DNA of 41,504 nt from positions 1 to 41,504 of the forward strand of contig JAUMVO010000014.1 in assembly GCA_030530095.1 (NCBI GenBank), in the 5' to 3' direction. The notes beneath the pieces are model-generated. The model was not told the DNA's origin. It saw only the letters and a list, made by a program, of their open reading frames with translations, and searched no databases. The translations under genes and the position numbers were made by a program. The DNA comes from Clostridiaceae bacterium. GTDB lineage: Bacteria; Bacillota; Clostridia; Oscillospirales; Acutalibacteraceae. This document shows, in pieces, positions 29,675 to 41,504 of the stretch (the first letter of the stretch is position 1; every line of letters begins with the position of its first letter).

Positions 29675-29863
29675 TTGAACACTGACGAAACTATGAAAAG
29701 CGAGTATTTCGGCACACCGATTTTGCCGGAAACAGTCGCAGTGACTATGGCGTACGTTCCGTTTCAAACGGATACGACCGAATATACGCCCGAAAAGGCG
29801 CTCAAATGCGGCACACTGTTTCCCGATCTGAACAAACCGTTTCTTGGAGGTGCGTGCAAATGA
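29675..29863 (+). CDS. cotJA: Spore coat protein CotJA
   Basis: A 62-aa spore-coat-associated protein. The C-terminal half matches CotJA: MAYVPFQ, then EYTPEKALKCGTLFP and the closing LNKPFLGG. The start is TTG at 29675 with AAGGAG at 29661-29666; the next ATG has no ribosome site. First gene of the cotJABC operon, which in Bacillus is transcribed in the mother cell under sigma-E. The stop overlaps the cotJB start (ATGA). I saw no convincing sigma-E promoter. Presence of these genes argues the host forms spores. Confidence 0.9.
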   Translation: MNTDETMKSEYFGTPILPETVAVTMAYVPFQTDTTEYTPEKALKCGTLFPDLNKPFLGGACK

Positions 29864-30108
29864 CGCGAAAGCAGGCTTTATTGAGACTTTCACAGGTGCA
29901 GTTTGCAGCCTGGGAGCTTCACGTCTATCTCGACACACATCCTGACGACATGGCTGCTGCGCTTCGTTACAAGCAGTATGCGTCCGAATATCAGAAAATG
30001 CTCTCGGAGTTCGAGATGCAGTTCGGACCGATTACCGGACCGGCAAACGGAAATGAATGGCTTAAGGACCCGTGGCCGTGGGAAAACGCAAAGGAGAGTG
30101 ATTGCTGA
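29860..30108 (+). CDS. cotJB: Spore coat protein CotJB
   Basis: An 82-aa protein, recognised by its position between cotJA and cotJC and by the family pattern of an N-terminal helix (LLRLSQVQFAAWELHVYLD), THPDD, then LRYKQYASEY. The end contains a PWPWE motif also seen in CotJB proteins. GGAGGTG at 29847-29853 sets ATG 29860, which overlaps the cotJA stop by 4 bp. Likewise its stop overlaps the cotJC start (TGATG). It probably needs CotJC for assembly into the coat; that gene is broken here. Confidence 0.9.
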   Translation: MTRKQALLRLSQVQFAAWELHVYLDTHPDDMAAALRYKQYASEYQKMLSEFEMQFGPITGPANGNEWLKDPWPWENAKESDC

Positions 30109-30323
30109 TGTTCCAATATGAAAAGAAACTTCAATTTCCCGTCAATATAAAGAATCCCAACCCCGTTTACGCTAAGATAATCGCCACGCAGTACGGCGGC
30201 CCCGACGGTGAGCTCGGTGCCTCGCTGCGCTACCTTTCACAGCGCTATTCGATGCCCTATGCCGAGCTTAAAGGCCTGCTCACTGATATCGGCACAGACG
30301 AACTTTCGTTGGGATTTTTTTGA
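30108..30323 (+). pseudogene. cotJC: cotJC 5' fragment, interrupted by mobile element
   Basis: The first ~66 codons are a near-canonical CotJC (manganese-catalase-like spore coat protein): FQYEKKLQFPVNIKNPNP, then ATQYGGPDGELGASLRYLSQ, then LLTDIGTDEL. After DEL (codon ending 30305) the family should continue with Ala-His and metal-binding residues; instead the frame reads SLGFF and stops. The change falls at the end of the serine recombinase element, within the palindrome ACGAA-CT-TTCGT (30298-30309). The 3' two thirds of the gene, including most metal ligands, are not in the window. Either the gene is dead or it is restored by excision of the element. Confidence 0.9.
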
Positions 30324-31921
30324 TTATAAGCCTCAATTTCACTGCTTCCTGCAAGTATTCGTGCTGTCCAGACGCTCGGAATTGACTTTAAGTGAATATC
30401 CATCTTTCTGCCCTTGTAAACCACTATTTTGTCAATCATTTCCCGCATGAAGGCTTCGTCCGAAACCGAGCCGTCCATAATTTGTCTGAGATGCTTTTCA
30501 ATATCCTTGAGTATTTTTCCTTTATCCGCAATGTTCTGATTGTGGATTTTTTCTTTTTTAAGCCGTTCGGTCAGGGTTTCATATTCGGCGTTCAGGCGTT
30601 CACAGCCCTTTTTGTATTCTTCGGTTTCGATATCTCCCGACAGACACATGTCAAGCAGCTTCTGCTTCTTCTTTTCGGTTTTGGCAAGCTCCTTTTCATA
30701 GTAGGCTATGTTATCGTTGCTCGGCTCACTGTCAAGAACTGCTTTAACCGTTTTAAGCACCTTTTTAATGACTTTCTCTCTGCTTTTAAGTACATCGGTC
30801 ATTATTCGGTTAAGTATATCCGTGATGTCCTTTTCGCTTATGGAGTTCGTAGTGCATCCGATTGTTTCGCCGTTTTTATCCTTGCGCTTTGAACCGTTCT
30901 TCTGCGATTCAATACATACCCATTTGTTAGTTTTCTTTCCGTTTTTCATATACTTCGTTGTCCTTGTGAAGGTTGAACCGCATTCGGCACATTTGATTTT
31001 GCCTGAGAGCATATATCTGTTTGCAAATCCTGCCTGATTGGGTGTGCTTTTCTTTCTGCGCCGTTCTATTTCGAGCTGAGTTGCTTCAAACATTTCTCTT
31101 GAAATAATCGGCTCGTGGTGATCTCTTATTACAACGAATTCAAGTTGCCCTTCGTTTTTCTTTTTGGAGTGGGAGAGATAGTCGGGGGTGTAGGTCTTTT
31201 GCTGTATTAGATCTCCGCAGTATTTTTCATTTTTCAGCACACGCAGAATTACCGTATATGACCATTTCTTCATATAGGTTGAGGTTCTTATACCTTCTTC
31301 CTGAAGCTCTTTAGCAATCATGTGAGTGCCTTTTCCTTCGACAAGGAATTTGTGGAAGATAAGCCTGACTGTTTTTGCGCCTTCTTCGTTAATAATAAGT
31401 TTTCCGTCACGAACATCGTAACCGAGCATATCTCTGCCGAACACCTTGCCTTGCTCCATCATTCTTCGCTGTCCCCATTTTACACGCTCACTTGTCTTTC
31501 GGCTTTCTTCCTGTGCTATTGAGGACATTATTGTTAAGCGTAATTCTGCATCGGGATCAAGCGTATTTATGTTATCGTTCATAAATATTACGCCTATGCC
31601 CAATCGCTTCAGCTCTCTGGTATAACCGATACTGTCAAGCGTGTTTCTTGCGAATCGGCTTATCTCCTTTGTGATTATGATATCGAAGTTACCTCGCTTG
31701 GCATCCTCAATCATCTGATTGAAGGCGTTGCGCTTTTTTGTGCTTGTTCCGCTGATGCCTTCATCAACATAGATTTTAGAAAGCTCCCACAGGGGATTAC
31801 GCTTAATATAGTCATTGAAGTATCTCTGCTGACTTTCAAGCGAATTCGCCTGATCGAGACTGTCCGTTGATACACGGCAGTAAGCGGCTACCCGTTTAAT
31901 ATCGTTATCAAATTTATACAT
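30257..31921 (-). CDS. Large serine recombinase of the element
   Basis: A 554-aa site-specific recombinase. The N-terminal resolvase domain has the nucleophile Ser18 in YCRVSTD, then EISRFARNT and SSIAQEESRK. The Recombinase domain includes GYDVRDGKL and LKNEKYCGDL, followed by a zinc-ribbon with CAEC and later single cysteines (residues about 325-385) and a coiled coil near residues 420-480. ATG 31921 has AAGGAG upstream (reverse strand); the longer frame is not supported. The gene runs through the junction, so its last 15 or so residues (SSVPISVSRPLSSA) come from antisense cotJC. It is the integrase and probably the excisionase core, requiring a separate directionality factor. It is transcribed toward cotJABC. 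Confidence 0.95.
   Translation of the reverse strand: MYKFDNDIKRVAAYCRVSTDSLDQANSLESQQRYFNDYIKRNPLWELSKIYVDEGISGTSTKKRNAFNQMIEDAKRGNFDIIITKEISRFARNTLDSIGYTRELKRLGIGVIFMNDNINTLDPDAELRLTIMSSIAQEESRKTSERVKWGQRRMMEQGKVFGRDMLGYDVRDGKLIINEEGAKTVRLIFHKFLVEGKGTHMIAKELQEEGIRTSTYMKKWSYTVILRVLKNEKYCGDLIQQKTYTPDYLSHSKKKNEGQLEFVVIRDHHEPIISREMFEATQLEIERRRKKSTPNQAGFANRYMLSGKIKCAECGSTFTRTTKYMKNGKKTNKWVCIESQKNGSKRKDKNGETIGCTTNSISEKDITDILNRIMTDVLKSREKVIKKVLKTVKAVLDSEPSNDNIAYYEKELAKTEKKKQKLLDMCLSGDIETEEYKKGCERLNAEYETLTERLKKEKIHNQNIADKGKILKDIEKHLRQIMDGSVSDEAFMREMIDKIVVYKGRKMDIHLKSIPSVWTARILAGSSEIEAYNQKNPNESSSVPISVSRPLSSA
30298..30309. other. Candidate attachment-site core (one end of the element)
   Basis: A perfect small inverted repeat, ACGAA-CT-TTCGT, falls exactly where cotJC similarity ends. 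Large serine recombinases cut at a two-base core flanked by imperfect inverted repeats, so CT (30303-30304) is a reasonable crossover dinucleotide. The partner site is outside the window, so no direct repeat can be shown. Confidence 0.5.
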
Positions 31922-31937: not shown

Positions 31938-31953
31938 TGTGTTCTTAAACACA
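31938..31953 (-). promoter_or_regulatory. Inverted repeat in the recombinase leader
   Basis: Perfect TGTGTT-CTTA-AACACA lies between the -10 box and the ribosome site of the recombinase gene, positioned as an operator. Confidence 0.5.
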
Positions 31954-31954
31954 C

Positions 31955-31982
31955 ATTATATTCAGAACTTTTAATAAGTCCA
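31955..31982 (-). promoter_or_regulatory. Promoter of the recombinase gene
   Basis: On the minus strand: TGGACT (31982-31977), 16-bp spacer, perfect TATAAT (31960-31955), about 35 bp before the start codon. Confidence 0.6.
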
Positions 31983-32027: not shown

Positions 32028-32189
32028 TTATTGCTTTTCAATGTATCGCTCGTATTGATTCTGATTTATAAAACCGTTTTTCAAAAGTGAAATGAGCAAC
32101 GCATTTTCAATCGTTTGTTCCAATAAGTCATTATCAACATTCGCAGTATAATTTTCGTTTTCATTTTCAAAGATGATTTTGGTTTTCAC
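32028..32189 (-). CDS. Small SHOCT-like protein, 53 aa
   Basis: A gene starting at GTG 32189 with GAGG 8 bp upstream on the minus strand. The product begins MKTKIIFENENENY and ends with a SHOCT-type short helical hairpin: LEQTIENALLISLLKNGFIN followed by QNQYERYIEKQ. Comparable short C-terminal domains occur in tiny proteins encoded next to serine recombinases in Clostridial elements. Function unknown; it could be a recombination directionality factor, but this is a guess from size and position. It lies between the relaxase and the recombinase, on the same strand. Confidence 0.65.
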   Translation of the reverse strand: MKTKIIFENENENYTANVDNDLLEQTIENALLISLLKNGFINQNQYERYIEKQ

Positions 32190-32299: not shown

Positions 32300-33628
32300 T
32301 TACATGCTCTGAACATACTGGCTTTCCTCATCTTCTTCTTTTTTCTTACGCTGGGCGTAATCAATCATTTCGGCGAACGTTCCAGCCAGATGTACAACAG
32401 CAGGAATAGTAAATTGATTATTGTCGGCACGGCGAACAGAAGAGCGATGAGTCTTCTTTTGAACTTTTTTGTCTTGTTGTCTAAGTCCGACATGAACGAA
32501 GTAAACTGTTCTCTCTGCTTCCCAGCCAGTTCGGACAGTTCCTTCTCCCGATCCAGCAGCTTCTTGTTCGTTTCCTCTGCCGCCGAAAGAAGAACTCCTT
32601 TCAGACAAACCAGATTCTCCTCCCATTGAGTCAGGTTGTTGAAGCATATCGTGTCCACGAATTTCTCTGCTTCCTCGTAATTCGGAGTGTTTGCCACGTC
32701 CTTTGCCAGAGCGTCCGTCGCCCGGCTCTGGAACTTCAGAACTTTGATCAGCTCTTCCCATTTGTCTTTGTCCACTATCGTCACCGACAGTGCGTCCTCC
32801 ATGTTGGAGATGTAACCCGGCACCGGGTTGCATCTGTTCTCCGTGTTCCATATAAGTTCGTCGTATTTTGAACTCATTTGATATATTCTCCTTTAAAAAT
32901 TTTTCGTTGTGCAGATTATCATCTCTGCATCTGTGTTTTGGATTGTCCGATTCAATGAAAGTAATATTCTTTCTTGAATCCGACCATTTGACTTCGTAAC
33001 CTTTCCGTTTCATCTCTTTGATGAATTCTTCCTTTGATCCGGATTTTTTCATCGCAGAGACAATGGCAATTATCATATTCCGTTTCCAGCTTGAACCGTT
33101 TCTTGCAGAATAGTATTCGCCGGCTTTTGTCGGTTTGATTTTTTCTTTCGGCTTCGCAGGACAGACAGGCAAACCGTATTTCATACACAGCTCATCATTT
33201 ACCGAACGCATCCGTTTAATATCATCACCGTTCTGATGGATCTTTTTACCGTTTACACAGTTGACGGAGTTGATAATGATATGCGAATGTATGTTGTCCG
33301 TATCAAGATGAGTTGCAATAACAATTTCGTGATCGGGATAACATTTTTCTGCCCACTCTCTCGCAAGAGTATGAGCGAGCACGGGATCAATGTCAGCGTC
33401 CTTGAATGACTGTATCGCATAATAGTACTGCCGACCTTCTGTTTTGTTAAAGCGTTCCTTAGTAGAAACGAAATCCTTTAACGCCGTTTCGGGTAAGCAG
33501 TTAATACCCGATATCAATCTGCCGTTGTCATATTCAGTTTTTTCTTCCTGAAAAGAATATGAAATTACGCTGCCGAGCGAACCGACATTCCCGCTGTCCT
33601 TTCTTCCAATAAAACTTATCGTTGCCAT
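32300..33628 (-). CDS. Relaxase, MOBP-type (pfam03432-like)
   Basis: A 442-aa mobilization nuclease that would nick oriT and pilot the strand during conjugal transfer. The N-terminal relaxase domain (about residues 1-200) opens with SLGSVISYSFQEEKTEY and carries the metal-binding His cluster THLDTDNIHSHIIINSVN. From about residue 265 to 400 the sequence turns into a Gly/Ser/Arg/Gln/Glu-rich, apparently disordered stretch; this is exactly where a second gene is read in another frame. The last 35 residues (HLAGTFAEMIDYAQRKKK onward) look ordered again. AGAGG precedes ATG 33628. It overlaps mobC by 13 bp. No coupling protein or secretion genes are visible, so the element would borrow another element's machinery. 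Confidence 0.92.
   Translation of the reverse strand: MATISFIGRKDSGNVGSLGSVISYSFQEEKTEYDNGRLISGINCLPETALKDFVSTKERFNKTEGRQYYYAIQSFKDADIDPVLAHTLAREWAEKCYPDHEIVIATHLDTDNIHSHIIINSVNCVNGKKIHQNGDDIKRMRSVNDELCMKYGLPVCPAKPKEKIKPTKAGEYYSARNGSSWKRNMIIAIVSAMKKSGSKEEFIKEMKRKGYEVKWSDSRKNITFIESDNPKHRCRDDNLHNEKFLKENISNEFKIRRTYMEHGEQMQPGAGLHLQHGGRTVGDDSGQRQMGRADQSSEVPEPGDGRSGKGRGKHSELRGSREIRGHDMLQQPDSMGGESGLSERSSSFGGRGNEQEAAGSGEGTVRTGWEAERTVYFVHVGLRQQDKKVQKKTHRSSVRRADNNQFTIPAVVHLAGTFAEMIDYAQRKKKEEDEESQYVQSM
32365..32877 (-). CDS. MobB-like membrane protein overprinted in the relaxase gene
   Basis: A 170-aa protein read in a different frame wholly inside the relaxase gene. The start has its own AAAGGAG site 10 bp upstream of ATG 32877. 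The protein looks natural: an N-terminal globular part, a charged coiled-coil stretch (KLLDREKELSELAGKQREQF) and a single transmembrane helix near the C-terminus (about residues 142-166, LIALLFAVPTIINLLFLLLY). Overlapping mobilization genes inside relaxase genes are known from RSF1010 and ColE1-type plasmids, where the second product helps the relaxosome dock at the membrane; a similar role is inferred here. Confidence 0.8.
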   Translation of the reverse strand: MSSKYDELIWNTENRCNPVPGYISNMEDALSVTIVDKDKWEELIKVLKFQSRATDALAKDVANTPNYEEAEKFVDTICFNNLTQWEENLVCLKGVLLSAAEETNKKLLDREKELSELAGKQREQFTSFMSDLDNKTKKFKRRLIALLFAVPTIINLLFLLLYIWLERSPK

Positions 33629-33954
33629 TTGCCTGACCTCTTAATGATTTTTGCGAGCTGAGAATTAATTTCAGACAGCTCATCAGTAAATTCATCAAGA
33701 CCTATTACGCTTATCTTTCCGAACTGCGCTAACATACGAAGCTGATTTATGTTGTTGCCGATGATTTTTACCTGTCTGACTAATTCGTCAAACGAATCCT
33801 TGTCACCGATAACAGTTATGTCCTTATCTATTGCAGCAGCGGTCAGGTAGGATGACATACTCATACCGTACTGCCTTGCCTTTGAGGTGATTGTTTGTTT
33901 ATCCGAGGGAGTAAAGTGAATGGTAAATCTTTCGCTTTTTGTTTCCTTTGGCAT
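33616..33954 (-). CDS. MobC-like relaxosome accessory protein
   Basis: A 112-aa DNA-binding accessory protein of the MobC family (pfam05713-like). The N-terminal part has a ribbon-helix-helix look (RFTIHFTPSDKQTITSKARQ, then YGMSMSSYLTAAAID), followed by the MobC signature ELVRQVKIIGNNINQLRMLA. Such proteins bind and melt oriT to help relaxase nicking. ATG 33954 is chosen because AAGGATG stands upstream; a longer frame to 34026 would need a TTG start inside a hairpin. It overlaps the relaxase start by 13 bp, so the two are coupled. Confidence 0.9.
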   Translation of the reverse strand: MPKETKSERFTIHFTPSDKQTITSKARQYGMSMSSYLTAAAIDKDITVIGDKDSFDELVRQVKIIGNNINQLRMLAQFGKISVIGLDEFTDELSEINSQLAKIIKRSGKWQR

Positions 33955-33989
33955 AGTTATCACATCCTTATCCGTTGTTGAAGTGGGTT

Positions 33990-34253: not shown

Positions 34254-34550
34254 TCAGATTTTCTGTACAGTGTACAGGTGCGATAGCATATTACCGTTAC
34301 TGCAGTCACGGCGGTGAGTGATCATAATATATCCGCTGTTCTCAAGATTTTTCAGAGCGATATCTACTGTCGGTAATGATATACAGCAGTTCTCGGATAT
34401 GTTCTTTCTTGAGGGAAAGCACTGATATTTCTGATCGGCACAGCGTTTAAGATAACTGTAAACGATGAACTCTCTTGGCTTCATTTTCTCCTTGAATATG
34501 TTGTTCGGCAGGAGGAAATAGTTGCCGTTGAAATCAACATTTTTGTACAT
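34254..34550 (-). CDS. Helix-turn-helix protein of the element, 98 aa
   Basis: A small winged-helix protein of the HTH_36 type, as in plasmid/ICE replication-initiator N-domains. FKEKMKPREFIVYSYLKRC is the first helix pair, CFPSRKNISENCCISLPTV the recognition region, LKNLENSGYI the wing. ATG 34550 has AAAGGAG 5 bp upstream. It may regulate the mobilization genes or be a remnant of a replication initiator, since nothing follows the wing. Separated from mobC by 300 bp that hold the oriT candidate and no gene. Confidence 0.75.
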   Translation of the reverse strand: MYKNVDFNGNYFLLPNNIFKEKMKPREFIVYSYLKRCADQKYQCFPSRKNISENCCISLPTVDIALKNLENSGYIMITHRRDCSNGNMLSHLYTVQKI

Positions 34551-34780: not shown

Positions 34781-34960
34781 ATCCCTTCATCTAATAACAA
34801 CGGGATTGGGATTTTACAACCTTTTTTGATAATATTTTTTATCTTTTTAAAAACTCCTTTCACTTAACGGACAAAAAATTGTCATTTTACAAGGTTTTTT
34901 TTAAAAAATCTCTCAATAAGCTATTAGCGAATTTTTTATAGTTTTAACCAAAACTTTTTT

Positions 34961-35079
34961 AAAAAGTCCTCTCACCTATAGCCAGGAAAAGGGCCATTTT
35001 ACAAGGTTTTTATATATGAACTTTTTGTAAATATTTTTTTGAATGAGAAAAAAGCCCTTCCATATAACGGACAAAAATC
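34961..35079. repeat. 118-bp repeat unit, copy 1
   Basis: Runs from AAAAAGTCCTCTCACC through a TTTTACAAGG block, TATGAACTTTTTGTAAAT and AAAAAGCCCTTCCATA to AACGGACAAAAA. Carries an extra T relative to copy 2 in the GGGCTTTTTT tract (minus strand). Confidence 0.75.
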
Positions 35080-35191
35080 AGGCAAATTATGCAGTTTTTG
35101 TTTAAAATAATTGTTATATTTTTTATTTAACACTTCCATATAACGGACAAAAATCGGCGAAAATATGACGCTTTTTTGAAAAATAATTTTT

Positions 35192-35308
35192 AAAAACTCT
35201 CTCACCCTAATGCCTTTTTTCGAGCGTTTTATTAGCTTTTTAGATATGAACTTTTTGTAAATGTTTTTTTGAATGAGAAAAAGCCCTTCCATATAACGGA
35301 CAAAAAAT
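35192..35308. repeat. 118-bp repeat unit, copy 2
   Basis: Same block order as copy 1; the first part reads ACCCTAATGCCTTTTTT, and the last 64 bp are almost identical to copy 1. Confidence 0.75.
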
Positions 35309-35525
35309 TGCCGTTTTACAACCCTTCTTGAAAAATATCTCTCACTTAATAACAACGGGAAGCGAAAAATATCGGCTTTTTGAAAAAAATACCTTTCACC
35401 TAACGGACAAAAATCTGGAAAATTATTAGGTTTTTGAATAAAAAATATGCAAATTATTTTTGAAGTGCGATTATTCTTCTCACTTGTATAGGAGTATTCA
35501 GGGCAAAAACGGGGGGTATCTTTTT

Positions 35526-35643
35526 AAAAAGTCCTCTCACCCTAATGCCTTTTTTAGGGCGTTTTACAACCTTTTTTGATATGAATTTTTTGTAAATCTT
35601 TTTTGAAAAAGAAAAAAAGCCCTTCCATAATAAGTACAAAAAT
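35526..35643. repeat. 118-bp repeat unit, copy 3
   Basis: Same block order; first part shares ACCCTAATGCCTTTTTT with copy 2 and GTCCTCTCACC with copy 1. The last block diverges (AAGTACAAAAA instead of AACGGACAAAAA). Confidence 0.7.
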
Positions 35644-35668
35644 ATGGCAAAATATGCGGTTTTTAAAT

Positions 35669-35704
35669 AAAAAAATCCCTCCAAATGTTTTTACACTTGG
35701 AGGG
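35669..35704 (-). terminator. Terminator in minus-strand orientation
   Basis: Stem CCCTCCAA / TTGGAGGG with an internal TGT/ACA extension; on the minus strand it is followed by ATTTTTTT. It would stop transcription coming from higher coordinates on the minus strand, where no gene was recognised. Confidence 0.7.
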
Positions 35705-35842
35705 TGACTCTGTTGCATTATGTAGTTTTTGTTTTTAGTTTTGTCACCTATTTGTTACACATCGGATGATATACTTAACAACGAAAACGAAAATAGTGTT
35801 CAGCATAACTATCTTTTTATTATCAAAATGTTTTGTTCCTTA

Positions 35843-35976: not shown

Positions 35977-36030
35977 TTTATGGATTTATTAGAATTTTTG
36001 TTTTCAGTTTTATGTCACAGGAGGTATTTT

Positions 36031-39000
36031 ATGAAAACATTGAAAAAGGCTTTGGCGGTTTTACTGTCTGTAATTATGATTATCGGTATTGTGCCGGTTT
36101 CTGTACTGCCCGTTACGGCGGCTGAAACGGACGAAGGTGTGCCGTCTGTTCCGTCGGATATAAGCTTTAACGAAACATATACTTATGATATTTATATTCA
36201 AACGGTTGATGACGCTGACTTATGGAATTCGGCGTACTTCTCTATTGGCGACGGAAGCAATGATGCCGTTAAATGGGATATAATGTCAGACATTGACGAC
36301 TATGGAGATACTTTTTCAAAAACATATACTTCCGATACATTGTTTCCTGTTATGAAGCTCGAAACAGATTTCGGCTTGGTCATGCCTCGTGAATGGAAAG
36401 GAAATGTTCGTATCAGAATTAACGGTTATACAGTTTGCAGCAAAGCTTTTACTATTCGTACCAGTGATTACAATAAGGATATTTATATTTATCCCGAACC
36501 TCCCAGAATAGAAAAATTAAAGCTATATACAAAGGATCCTTACAACAATACATATCCCGTGTCGCTCACTTCTGATTTGCGTTTAATGCAGGGAAATGAA
36601 ATCGGCAATACTTTGTCAGGCAATATCTATGCTCTTGCCGTTAACCAGTACAATGTGCCTTTCGACAATTGGATAAAGTCTGTCAATCATTCAGGGGCTA
36701 TAGCCTCGGGCAAGGATGTCTGGCTTAGTGCAATATCACCTGACTATTCGGGTATGGATAAGATTGAGTTTTCGCATCAGGCAGGAAAATACGGAGTTTT
36801 CAAACTGACAAGTACTGCAGGTGTTGATCATAATATCGGTCTTAACTTATATTGCGGTAATTATAGCAAATGGGTGAAGAACGGCGATCCTTTTACTAGT
36901 TTTGTAGATACTTCCGGAATACGGAGATATACCGGAACTCAGCAGTTTAATCCGGGAAATGTTGAATTAAAGTTCAGAAGAGGTCTTAATGTTTATCTCA
37001 ATGCAGACTTATATAAATCCTTCACAGGCAACATCGGTGATTCTATTGCAGTTTTCTTTAAAGAGGACGATATACCCGAAGGGTACTACCTGAACAGCGT
37101 TACCTCCAGCGGCGCAGGTGAGTTGGAGCACTACGGCTATTACGGTCAGTATTTTTATACTTTAGGTGACGGAAATGCGGTAATAACCGCAACAACTGCG
37201 CCTAATAACTATACAATTGAGTATAATGCAAATGCATCGGATGCAACGGGAGAGATGGAAAGTACAGCTGCAACCTATGATAAGGATGTTCAGCTCAGAA
37301 GTTGCGGCTTTACGAGAAACGGCTGGGGCTTTGTCGGCTGGAATACCAAGGCTGACGGCAGCGGCACTGCTATTACCGATATGGGTTATGCAAAGAATCT
37401 TACGAGCGAAAGAGACGGTACAGTTACTCTTTATGCTCAGTGGGGCAGCTCTACCGTTGATGTTACGCTGAAATATCCGCAGGAAATGGGTATAGCCGAC
37501 AAGAATATTCTCGTAAATCGTGGCGGCAGCATTCCTGTTGAGAGTGATATTAACACAGGCGACGCTGAAGGACATTATCATTTTGTCAGCGCTGACAGAA
37601 GTCTTGACAATATACAGCAGGAGGGTGTAATAAACCTCACTTACGAAAAAACGGCGCACACCTACGGCGAAACGTTTTATACTGTCGCACCTACCTGTAC
37701 GACGGACGGTGTTGAAGCACAGCTTTGTACTGAGTGCGGCTACGAAAAAAGTGAAACCGTTACTGCTTTTCACCAGGATGTAGTTCATGTTGACAGCATA
37801 CCTGCAACCTGCGAATCGGACGGCGTTGAGGATGCTACTGTTTGTAACGCCTGCGGCGAGGTTCTTGAGAGAGGAGCCGTGATTCCTGCTCTCGGACACA
37901 ATTATAATTTCAAGAATATTACATGGGATTTAACTACCGAAAGCGGAACGCCTGAGGGCTATGTTTATGTAGTGTGCAAAAACGATTCGGACCACATCTG
38001 TATTTCCGAGGCTACTGTTACCGAGGAGGATGGCGGTTTCCTTGCGAGCGCCGTACTTGATGACCTGCCTGTATCAAAATTCCTTGAAAAAGGTAAGGAT
38101 ATTTTCACCGTAACTGCTTCCTGTAACGAGGGAGGTACTTTGACTGCCGACCATACCGTAGCTTTGCCGGGTGAAACAGTTAATTTTGAGTATTCCGTTA
38201 ATGACGGCTGCTATCTTAATAAACTGACCGTTAAGCAGGGCGACACAGATATAGCATTAAACGGAAATTCCTTTATTATGCCGCAGGGCAATGTAACTCT
38301 TAATGCGGTATTCGGCACGATTGCACCCAATCAGTGCGGTGCCGACGCTTACTGGAGATATGATGAGCCGACAAAAACTCTTACGGTTTTCGGCAGCGGA
38401 CCTATGTTTGATTTTACTGCAGAGGAAGCTGATGAAAGACTGAACAACGGCTTGCAGTATTATGCTTATAAGGATGAATGCGAGTATATAGTAATTGATG
38501 AAGGTATTACATATATAGGCGATTTTGCATTTATGGGACTCAGCAAGGTTACGGACGTTCAAATGTCCGACAGCGTAACATCCGTCGGCAGATGTGCTTT
38601 CCTTAATGATATTTCTGTAAATAATATCAAAATGTCCGAATCCCTTAATGAAATCGGAAATAACGCTTTTGCTTATATCGGCACAATAGATTACATTGAT
38701 ATTCCTGCGTCGGTTACAAGCATTTCAGGCGGCGCTTTCTACGGCACTCAGCCGACTGAGATATACAGCTTTGCCGACCCCGACAGCTTGACGTGGAGCA
38801 ATACCGCTGATGAGCTTCTTCCCTCAAAGCAGACTGTCGTACATGTTTACAGTCAGTATCTTTCAAGATATCAGGAAAAATTCGGCAGCTCTGTCAATGC
38901 AACCTTTGTAGGCGACCTTGACTCGAAAATACACGATATTACAATTATTCAGTCAGCTCACGGCACTGTTACCGCTAATTATGAAACAGTTCATACGGGC

Positions 39001-41504
39001 GCAGTAGTTAAGCTTACAAATACTGCTGATTCAGGATACGGACTTAAAAACTATGTTGTAAGAGATACAAAGAAGAATAACATTACAGTTACCGACGGTA
39101 CCTTTGTTATGCCTGACAGAGATGTTATAGTAACCGCCGAATTCAGCAGGATTTATTCAATCGGTTATGAGGTAGCTTCGGGCGAGGGTACTATTGAACT
39201 GCCTGCCGATGCACCTGCAGGAGCAACCGTCAGCGTTACGGTTAATCCGTATACTAATAACGAACTGAAAAGGATGTATTATACAGCTGCTAACGGCGAG
39301 GTTACCGAAATTACAGGTAATCAGTTTGTAATGCCTGCTTCCGATATTACCGTTACGGCTGAATTCGGACTTATAGATTACAGCATTAGCTATGCCGACG
39401 CTCAGAACGGCTCTGTAACAGGTGTTGCAACAGCTCACCTCGGCGATTTGATTGAGCTTACCGTTACGCCTGATGAGGCTTATAAGCTTAAATCGCTGAC
39501 TGTTACGGACAGCGAAGGAAACGAAGTGAGTGTTACCGAAGATTATAAGTTCAATATGCCTGCTTCGGATGTTACCGTCAGCGCAGAGTTTGTAAGGGAT
39601 TATTACAGAATTACTTATTTGGATATGACTAACGGAACTGTCAGCGGAGTGCAAAGGGCTGATGAGGGTGATACAGTTCAGCTTACTGTCACACCTGCAA
39701 AAGGATATGAGCTTGACAGTCTGACTGTTAAGGACAGTAAGGACAATTCAGTCGATATTTCTGCTGATTATTTCATAACTATGCCGCAGGATGATATAAC
39801 TGTCAGTGCTTCATTTAAGAAAACTGATTATTCAATAAGCTATGAAGCTCAGAACGGATCGGTGTCCGGCGTCACTACTGCAAATTACGGTGATAATATT
39901 TCACTTACACTGACTCCTAATACAGGCTATGAGCTTTCAGAATTGACAGTTAAGGATTCAAACGGTAATACTGTCGAAGCAAATCAGGACGGCTTTATTA
40001 TGCCTGACTCAAATGTTACGGTGAATGCTGCTTTTGCAAAGGTTGATTATACCGTTACATATTCTGCTGAGCATGGCTCGGTTACGGGTTTACTCGCTGC
40101 AAATTATCAGGATATTGTAACATTAAGCATTACGCCTGATGAAGGTTACGGTATCAAGTCTGTTTCAATTAAAGATGCAAAGGGTAATACCATTGGCTTT
40201 GATGACAGCTATTCATTTACTATGCCCGATTCGGATGTTACTGTCAGTGTAATCTTTTCAGAGCTGAGAGCTTATGCAGTTTATGACAGCGATTCCCAAA
40301 CGCTGACATTTAAGTATGATGCAAATTATAATTATTCATCAAACACATGGGATGTTGAACATACAGGCACAACCATGGGTTGGAACAGTTACAGATTTGA
40401 TATGAAGCATATAGTGTTTGAACCTTCTTTCGCACAGGCGAGACCCTTGAGTACGGCATATTGGTTTAATGAGTGTTATAATATTATTGACATTCAAGGT
40501 CTTGAGTATTTAAATACCTCACAGGTTACAGATATGAGCTATATGTTTTACGGTTGTCAGACTAATGTACAGATCGATACATTTGATATAAGCCATTTTG
40601 ACACTTCAAAAGTTACCGATATGTCATATATGTTTAGTAATTGCAGAACCGTAAAAGAGCTTGATGTAAGTAACTTTGACACATCAAATGTCACATCGAT
40701 GGACCATATGTTTAATGAGTGCAGTTCATTAACAGAACTTGATTTAACCGGCTTTGATACCTCAAATGTTACCGATATGGGCGTTATGTTTGGTAACTGT
40801 ACAGGTCTTACCTCACTTGACTTAACAAGCTTTGACACCGCAAAGGTTGAACGAATAGTAAGTATTTTCAGAAACTGTTCCTCTCTCTCGTCAATTGATT
40901 TAAGCAGCTTTGACGCTTCTGCCTTTTCCAACGCCAAGTATATGTTCTATGACTGTACCAATCTTGAAACTATTTATGTTTCAAGTGCCGATGCGGCTTG
41001 GACAAAAGGCGATGGTACCGATATGTTTGTCAACTGCGACAAACTCGTAGGCGGAACCGGAACGGCTTATAACAGTGCAAACGTCGGCATATCAATGGCG
41101 AAGGTTCAGGATGGTTATTTTACCGTAAAAACTTATAATATCGTTGTTGCAGACAGCACAGACGGTACGGTACAGGCAGACAAAACTACTGCTGCTAAGG
41201 GCGAAACCGTAGCACTTACCGCCTCTCCCGATACCGGTATGACTTTGGCTTACTATACTGTTACCGACAAAAACGGCGACAAGGTTACGGTAAACAGCGA
41301 TACCTTCACAATGCCCGCTTCCGATGTAACCGTTACGGCAGTATTCAGAGAAGCAGGAATTTACGATATCAACGAGGACGGCGTTGAGGATATAAACGAT
41401 ATAGCATTTATTATTTCTGCCTCTGCAGGCGAGGTAACTATGACCGAAGCACAGTCCGCCAAAGCTGACCTCAACGGTGATGGTGCTGTCGATGCCTTTG
41501 ATGC
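36031..41504 (+). CDS. Giant secreted BspA-like, dockerin-bearing surface protein (3' end cut by window)
   Basis: The frame is open from ATG 36031 (AGGAGG upstream) to the window end: 1,824 codons without a stop. Domains in order: signal peptide (residues 1-30, cleavage near PVTA-AE); unknown beta-rich region (about 31-390); InlB B-repeat (about 392-472, with GWGFVGWN and LYAQWG); two Cys-pair segments (about 551-627, CTECG and CNACG) ending IPALGH; a divergent repeat (about 690-760); BspA-type leucine-rich repeats (about 817-909); six tandem divergent InlB repeats of about 70 aa (968-1409), each ending like MPASDVTVSAEF; a DUF285 BspA region (about 1411-1650, with repeated FDTSNVTDM and MSYMF); another 70-aa repeat (1701-1772); and a dockerin-like end with calcium loops DINEDGVEDIND and DLNGDGAVDAFD. 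Likely exposed on the cell surface or attached to a cohesin scaffold, binding host or plant polymers; targets are unknown. No LPXTG is visible in the part present. Confidence 0.88.
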   Translation, partial: MKTLKKALAVLLSVIMIIGIVPVSVLPVTAAETDEGVPSVPSDISFNETYTYDIYIQTVDDADLWNSAYFSIGDGSNDAVKWDIMSDIDDYGDTFSKTYTSDTLFPVMKLETDFGLVMPREWKGNVRIRINGYTVCSKAFTIRTSDYNKDIYIYPEPPRIEKLKLYTKDPYNNTYPVSLTSDLRLMQGNEIGNTLSGNIYALAVNQYNVPFDNWIKSVNHSGAIASGKDVWLSAISPDYSGMDKIEFSHQAGKYGVFKLTSTAGVDHNIGLNLYCGNYSKWVKNGDPFTSFVDTSGIRRYTGTQQFNPGNVELKFRRGLNVYLNADLYKSFTGNIGDSIAVFFKEDDIPEGYYLNSVTSSGAGELEHYGYYGQYFYTLGDGNAVITATTAPNNYTIEYNANASDATGEMESTAATYDKDVQLRSCGFTRNGWGFVGWNTKADGSGTAITDMGYAKNLTSERDGTVTLYAQWGSSTVDVTLKYPQEMGIADKNILVNRGGSIPVESDINTGDAEGHYHFVSADRSLDNIQQEGVINLTYEKTAHTYGETFYTVAPTCTTDGVEAQLCTECGYEKSETVTAFHQDVVHVDSIPATCESDGVEDATVCNACGEVLERGAVIPALGHNYNFKNITWDLTTESGTPEGYVYVVCKNDSDHICISEATVTEEDGGFLASAVLDDLPVSKFLEKGKDIFTVTASCNEGGTLTADHTVALPGETVNFEYSVNDGCYLNKLTVKQGDTDIALNGNSFIMPQGNVTLNAVFGTIAPNQCGADAYWRYDEPTKTLTVFGSGPMFDFTAEEADERLNNGLQYYAYKDECEYIVIDEGITYIGDFAFMGLSKVTDVQMSDSVTSVGRCAFLNDISVNNIKMSESLNEIGNNAFAYIGTIDYIDIPASVTSISGGAFYGTQPTEIYSFADPDSLTWSNTADELLPSKQTVVHVYSQYLSRYQEKFGSSVNATFVGDLDSKIHDITIIQSAHGTVTANYETVHTGAVVKLTNTADSGYGLKNYVVRDTKKNNITVTDGTFVMPDRDVIVTAEFSRIYSIGYEVASGEGTIELPADAPAGATVSVTVNPYTNNELKRMYYTAANGEVTEITGNQFVMPASDITVTAEFGLIDYSISYADAQNGSVTGVATAHLGDLIELTVTPDEAYKLKSLTVTDSEGNEVSVTEDYKFNMPASDVTVSAEFVRDYYRITYLDMTNGTVSGVQRADEGDTVQLTVTPAKGYELDSLTVKDSKDNSVDISADYFITMPQDDITVSASFKKTDYSISYEAQNGSVSGVTTANYGDNISLTLTPNTGYELSELTVKDSNGNTVEANQDGFIMPDSNVTVNAAFAKVDYTVTYSAEHGSVTGLLAANYQDIVTLSITPDEGYGIKSVSIKDAKGNTIGFDDSYSFTMPDSDVTVSVIFSELRAYAVYDSDSQTLTFKYDANYNYSSNTWDVEHTGTTMGWNSYRFDMKHIVFEPSFAQARPLSTAYWFNECYNIIDIQGLEYLNTSQVTDMSYMFYGCQTNVQIDTFDISHFDTSKVTDMSYMFSNCRTVKELDVSNFDTSNVTSMDHMFNECSSLTELDLTGFDTSNVTDMGVMFGNCTGLTSLDLTSFDTAKVERIVSIFRNCSSLSSIDLSSFDASAFSNAKYMFYDCTNLETIYVSSADAAWTKGDGTDMFVNCDKLVGGTGTAYNSANVGISMAKVQDGYFTVKTYNIVVADSTDGTVQADKTTAAKGETVALTASPDTGMTLAYYTVTDKNGDKVTVNSDTFTMPASDVTVTAVFREAGIYDINEDGVEDINDIAFIISASAGEVTMTEAQSAKADLNGDGAVDAFD

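Follow-up and report, generated by a model that had tools for sequence, protein, structure and literature searches.

Does an element lodged inside cotJC, a coat gene, simply destroy it, or does the element leave so that the gene can be rebuilt at sporulation? This question is raised by the window, the whole stretch of 41,504 nucleotides analysed here, which is one contig (C30) of a 1.8 Mb assembly in 48 contigs (genome G000). Our overall explanation, which we regard as likely, is that of an intervening element excised so that cotJC works at sporulation, with the excision and its timing being what we infer.

The interrupted gene and its element

As put forward in the original prediction, the window's cotJ operon has intact cotJA and cotJB genes, which the Pfam matches confirm, followed by a cotJC gene that begins canonically and then gives way to foreign sequence (Table 1). 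Here, the first 61 codons of cotJC are canonical, the switch point is a GGCAC core beyond which only element sequence is found, and the resulting hybrid frame (cotJC 5' half plus element) extends to position 30323. In the Pfam search, the 5' piece matched positions 2-68 of the 284 in the Mn_catalase profile. A large serine recombinase gene is located at this junction, as had been predicted, but rather than ending exactly there, its frame goes 34 nt beyond the core into the antisense strand of cotJC. Adjoining cotJC are the host sporulation genes Spore_III_AA and Spore_III_AE, and the host also has sigma-K/E-like factors (286 and 244 bits) that score below the 298.65-bit curated cut-off of the sigma-K model.

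A whole-assembly search revealed no intact cotJC in this genome, and just two pieces, the window's 5' half and a 3' half on contig C17. The missing 3' part, which the original prediction had proposed to look for, was thus located behind attR; it had been expected to start with Ala-His after a CT core, but the core shared by both ends is GGCAC, and the 3' half in this genome reads GTEEL-Gly-His, with Ala-His being found in many relatives. The joining of C30 to C17 is based on the start of C17 being an exact overlap with the window's last 55 bases, on the dockerin frame of a giant protein that runs uninterrupted over this overlap, and on the arrangement in a congener (G262), where the 5' half, an 11.6-kb element, and the 3' half are all on one contig. 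The window's element is ~12.8 kb in length, and both cotJC halves are open and in phase.

Table 1. Features of the cotJ locus and the inserted element (window positions, unless contig C17 or its locus L003 is named)
Feature	Position	Strand	Basis or remark
cotJA, intact	29675..29863	+	Pfam PF11007
cotJB, intact	29860..30108	+	Pfam PF12652
cotJC 5' half up to core	30108..30295	+	Pfam PF05067, cotJC HMM
attL core GGCAC	30291..30295		same core at attR, L003:1646-1650
Large serine recombinase, 554 aa as integrated	30257..31921	-	Pfam Resolvase, Recombinase, Zn-ribbon; last 34 nt past core in cotJC antisense
Site resembling cotJ promoter, weak, 30 nt ahead of recombinase start	31952..31982	-	promoter motif search
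53-aa ORF directly upstream of recombinase, candidate directionality factor	32028..32189	-	homologue upstream of 69/79 parsed recombinases; no Pfam/NCBIfam match
Relaxase, MobA/VirD2 type	32300..33628	-	Pfam PF03432, NCBIfam
MobC/NikA-like mobilisation protein	33616..33963	-	Pfam PF21983, PF05713
Small HTH_36 protein	34254..34550	-	Pfam PF13730
AT-rich block of diverged direct repeats, iteron-like	34787..35734		repeat analysis
Cargo: giant protein with InlB B-repeat-like, LRR, and dockerin domains	35980..41504, on to L003:362 in C17	+	Pfam
cotJC 3' half, behind attR	C17:1631-2011 (L003 ~1634-2071)		profile search of own genome

Reading from the 5' half of cotJC, the element consists of the recombinase, the 53-aa ORF, the relaxase (whose gene overlaps another ORF), MobC/NikA, HTH_36, the direct repeats, the giant BspA-like protein, a lipoprotein-like ORF, and attR, the last two being situated on C17. 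The proposal that the cargo is a mobilization module rather than a phage agrees with the presence of the relaxase and MobC, and no phage structural genes (capsid, tail, packaging) were recognised by Pfam/NCBIfam among the six window element proteins tested or in the lipoprotein-like ORF; a prophage identity was therefore rejected for the window's element. What the proposal left out is that a giant surface protein is carried as well. Moreover, the recombinase, relaxase, and MobC are accompanied by no recognised conjugation apparatus among the few large ORFs. The window's element is quite probably a mobilisable, site-specific gene-intervening element in cotJC.

Cut sites and recombinases among relatives

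Our PF05067 search of 250 family genomes gave matches in 190, and 68 of these with a weak best match were re-searched along with 39 genomes of the window's genus. From the fetched flanks, 85 cut-site rows in 70 genomes were tabulated, five of which were dropped, namely G144-A for a frameshift, G196-B and G201-B because the contig stops while still in native sequence, and G098-B and G258-B as surplus 3' halves next to an intact gene. The 80 rows kept, from 67 genomes, represent site A after QYGG (n = 32), site B at IGTEEL, which is the window's site (n = 39), and site C at DLAAEQ (n = 9). In 11 of the 67 genomes, two or three sites are cut, and in G106 sites A, B, and C are all occupied on one contig. 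Both halves were found for 57 of the 80 rows, and in 24 of those 57 they are bridged by one contig over 2.3 to 98.5 kb, on the same strand in every case (24/24); these single-contig cases rule out a contig-edge artefact. Within the window's genus, the gene is cut in 11 of the 39 genomes, and in one related genus this applies to 9 of 11. The figure of 67 genomes is a lower bound, as G021 and G079, which have better-scoring matches too, also proved to be cut. An order-wide search gave a match in 234 of 295 genomes, many being weak or multiple.

Relatives of the window's recombinase occupy 22 places in the 250 family genomes at 350 bits or more, after which the scores drop to 301 bits, and they share 47-66% identity apart from the window's own and two that are either shorter or more distant. 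Among the loci fetched for these 22 places, a cotJC piece adjoins 13, plus G144. In the genome_contigs collection, the best 80 recombinase relatives gave a cotJC piece at 74 loci, and in 67 of the 73 of these 74 with a parsed recombinase, the piece lies no more than 300 nt from the recombinase 3' end; of the remaining six of the 80 loci, five belong to genomes whose cotJC is cut or partial, the sixth being L265. A recombinase is within 400 nt of a junction in 20 of the 24 single-contig elements. Among the carriers are Anaerocolumna sp. AGMB13025 and MB42-C2, which have complete genomes, as well as Intestinibacillus massiliensis and Ructibacterium gallinarum. The best match in the plasmid collection, Pusillibacter faecalis MM59, has the recombinase beside an annotated CotJB, and the cotJC 5' half lying between the two is unannotated. 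The two best matches in the phage collection, both of them fecal contigs, likewise contain cotJC halves. Recombinase groups were defined by similarity scores, and against the window's recombinase those of site A scored about 78-150 bits and those of site C 61-93 bits, with two site-B recombinases (G063 and G151) being likewise distant.

Small site-A elements (2.3-4.1 kb; L066, L050, L073, and L082) have ORFs that, judged by eye, resemble cell-wall hydrolases or holins. In the one-contig genome G556 (L230 and L234; same genus as G054), the cotJC halves are on opposite strands and ~2.1 Mb apart, so that, unless the assembly is wrong, their recombination would flip a section of the chromosome instead of cutting anything out. 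Some contigs also break off right at the site-B core or close to it (the end of G050:C6 and the starts of G113:C60 and C21), as is expected when reads carry more than one junction there, and integrated and excised states may have been present side by side.

Selection on the cut gene, and the proposed excision and its timing

When the pieces were joined at codon boundaries, an uninterrupted full-length CotJC was obtained in 44 of 50 genomes. The six failing joins comprise two that are incomplete (G061 and G201), two that are not insertions (G120, and G284 with its frameshift-like break), one with an internal stop (G099), and one (G100) that was matched from position 4 and failed the start criterion only. 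In G144, the 5' half is frameshifted.

Four species (G054, G173, G560, and G559) share one site-A element, whose recombinase is as diverged as the host gene (dS of 0.32-0.52 vs 0.25-0.52 for the cotJC 3' half), and the synonymous to nonsynonymous changes in this cut 3' half amount per pair to 31:2, 44:4, 47:8, 42:4, 40:9, and 26.5:4.5. Judging from these substitution patterns, cotJC in the four site-A species is under strong, long-term purifying selection, which argues against simple disruption. For the window's own element, the 3' half differs from that of the sister genome G256 by 22.5 synonymous and 1.5 nonsynonymous changes. The window's element and its G262 counterpart are 93-96% identical across large aligned blocks, with a dS of 0.11 for the recombinase vs 1.45 for the cotJC 5' half; the element is thus much younger than the host split, which suggests its transfer between cells and also its horizontal movement between species. 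Long residence is therefore best shown for other elements, and it is mainly through these that there is indirect evidence for the interrupted cotJC still being functional in the lineage.

Two genomes, G098 (L145) and G258 (L177/L178), have an intact cotJC followed by element cargo and a second 3' half behind attR, with the recombinase end being lost, and these we read as decayed elements whose cargo stayed. Comparison of the paired 3' copies gave 1 synonymous change in G098, and 60 synonymous and 10 nonsynonymous changes in G258.

As for excision itself, the window's genome revealed the integrated state only, with no excision product seen in the assembly, and an attP pattern search of viral_contigs gave 0 matches. 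The small ORFs homologous to that upstream of the window's recombinase had no NCBIfam match, and sub-threshold Pfam matches were obtained in only two of the four tested; the adjacent 53-aa protein is the best candidate for a probable recombinase partner (directionality factor). The regions upstream of cotJA share a conserved promoter resembling the sigma-K consensus. Among recombinase upstream regions, a cotJ-type promoter was found at p <= 0.05 in 7 of 55, a weak enrichment, and a further search gave 6/65 and 9/67 vs 1/67 for a control inside the recombinase. With the enrichment being this weak, a cotJ-like promoter was not upheld as proof of sporulation control.

The in-phase halves and the purifying selection are also accounted for by a reversible but unprogrammed insertion, wherein the element is lost randomly from some cells of a population, these being the cells on which selection acts, with no link to sporulation. 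This would sit comfortably with the weak promoter evidence, and also with yin, whose excised circles are described at all culture time points in the relevant part of one report (PMC10747680), but we judge it unlikely given that a coat gene is targeted in many genera and at three sites, and given the conserved sigma-K-like promoter of cotJA, by which cotJC is of importance in the mother cell only, a place where the element loses nothing by leaving. Somewhat less probable again is plain disruption, the alternative also voiced in the original prediction, whereby cotJC is merely a convenient target and dead wherever elements sit: no excision product was observed, damage is seen in a small number of cut or broken copies (G144 and G284), and CotJC-type proteins may be dispensable, judging from the account of C. 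difficile cotCB and cotD mutants that lost catalase activity with no significant coat defect (PMC11222575, in part), but the 2-9 nonsynonymous vs 26-47 synonymous changes per pair in the four species are far from decay and, together with the 44/50 intact joined genes, led us to reject it as the main reading.

Under the preferred explanation of an element excised for sporulation, the recombinase, probably with its partner protein, would remove the element from the DNA of the sporulating mother cell, and cotJC would be rebuilt, while the forespore would keep the element. Such mother-cell timing is proposed by analogy. In growing cells, the relaxase module may permit transfer, followed by re-integration into the cotJC of another cell.

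The recombinase tail and comparison with known elements

In the window subtype, attP lies inside the recombinase gene. Since the frame spans its own attachment site, the conserved C-terminus of the recombinase is exchanged for another on integration. The final recombinase codons of the integrated form are read from the cotJC antisense strand, and when the frame is instead read on into the element's far end, as in the circle form, there are 48-76 more codons that end in or near the motif [VIL]YA[AVM]. This motif is present in the recombinase phase at 11 of 13 element ends (7/9 with types treated as separate) and in 0 of the 26 other phases. Moreover, the five G000-type tails are under purifying selection (e.g., 9 synonymous to 2 nonsynonymous changes between G256 and G262). 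The tail motif is not general, as G080 and G281 are without it, the recombinase frame in G215 and G271 stops before the core, and the tail feature is found in 0 of 4 sense-oriented elements. An ssrA-like reading of the terminal YAA was set aside, since other tails extend beyond the YAA motif. In the site-B locus L048 (G247), no stop separates the recombinase frame from the cotJC 3' half, and the two form a fused frame of 727 codons when integrated.

Recombination in the window subtype would then also switch the recombinase C-terminus, with the circle encoding the conserved tail that integration removes. We lean modestly toward a broader reading in which cotJC is a gene split at the DNA level across much of Clostridia, with three codon sites, their own recombinase groups, and up to three stacked inserts that would all leave before CotJC is made, and in which excision of the window subtype would both join cotJC and restore the conserved tail of the recombinase, the antisense-derived tail of the integrated form perhaps setting the enzyme for excision over integration.

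According to the parts of the literature drawn on, the sporulation genes found interrupted are sigK, spsM, spoVFB, gerE, and yabG. Like skin in sigK (B. subtilis and C. difficile), the cotJC element lies inside a sporulation gene with a large serine recombinase at its edge, though the target gene, recombinase, and small protein are different, and while skin is prophage-like and its precise excision rebuilds sigK, excision would have to do the same for cotJC, from an element carrying a relaxase, MobC, and a surface protein. The directionality factor of C. difficile skin is the 72-aa CD1234, described in the relevant section of PMC5025042 as being under sigma-E and SpoIIID. Another non-phage intervening element is gin in gerE (B. 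cereus ATCC10987), with a serine recombinase and an extra factor, GirX, although it has three recombinases and another target gene, and no relaxase is reported in the portion of its description used here (PMC5595907). Sporulation genes are also interrupted by yin in yabG (C. botulinum V73), which excises as a circle, SP-beta in spsM, and vfbin, named as an element in spoVFB (PMC10747680, in part); unlike the cotJC element, these are prophages or prophage-like and, in the accounts consulted, described gene by gene, with no mention of cotJC. Its in-phase insertion within the coding sequence of a sporulation gene and its own site-specific recombinase are features that the cotJC element shares with the skin/gin/yin type.

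A likeness to the split recombinase is found in the integration-dependent immunity of mycobacteriophage BPs, wherein attP lies in an element gene and integration alters the protein end, the affected gene being the phage repressor in the portion of that work consulted (PMC4557955) and the serine recombinase itself here. Many serine recombinases share single target genes, such as a chelatase or a prolyl isomerase (PMC10083194, in part). Furthermore, in C. difficile R20291, the attR of prophage phi027 adjoins a cotJC-like catalase gene, ORF 1465, according to the relevant passage of PMC11222575, and this is a possible parallel to the cotJC elements. Our search of the open-access literature naming cotJC gave no report of an element inside this gene. 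The principle is thus known, and what is new comprises the target gene, the unusual breadth, the stacking, the mobilisation cargo, and the recombinase itself being split.

In practical terms, carrier genomes appear to lack cotJC, which is a warning for annotation; an intact homologue also exists in AGMB13025 and MB42-C2, which points to a possible redundancy of cotJC in certain hosts. The intervening elements known from sporulation genes are isolated cases in a few Bacillus and Clostridium strains, and in the present set at least 67 genomes have the same coat gene cut, at three sites, by elements with dedicated recombinases, cultured isolates with complete genomes included. Programmed gene reconstitution thereby becomes testable as a common strategy, as do the questions of why mobile elements pick genes needed only by the dying mother cell, how several inserts would exit in time, and whether a swap of the recombinase C-terminus may set the direction of the reaction.
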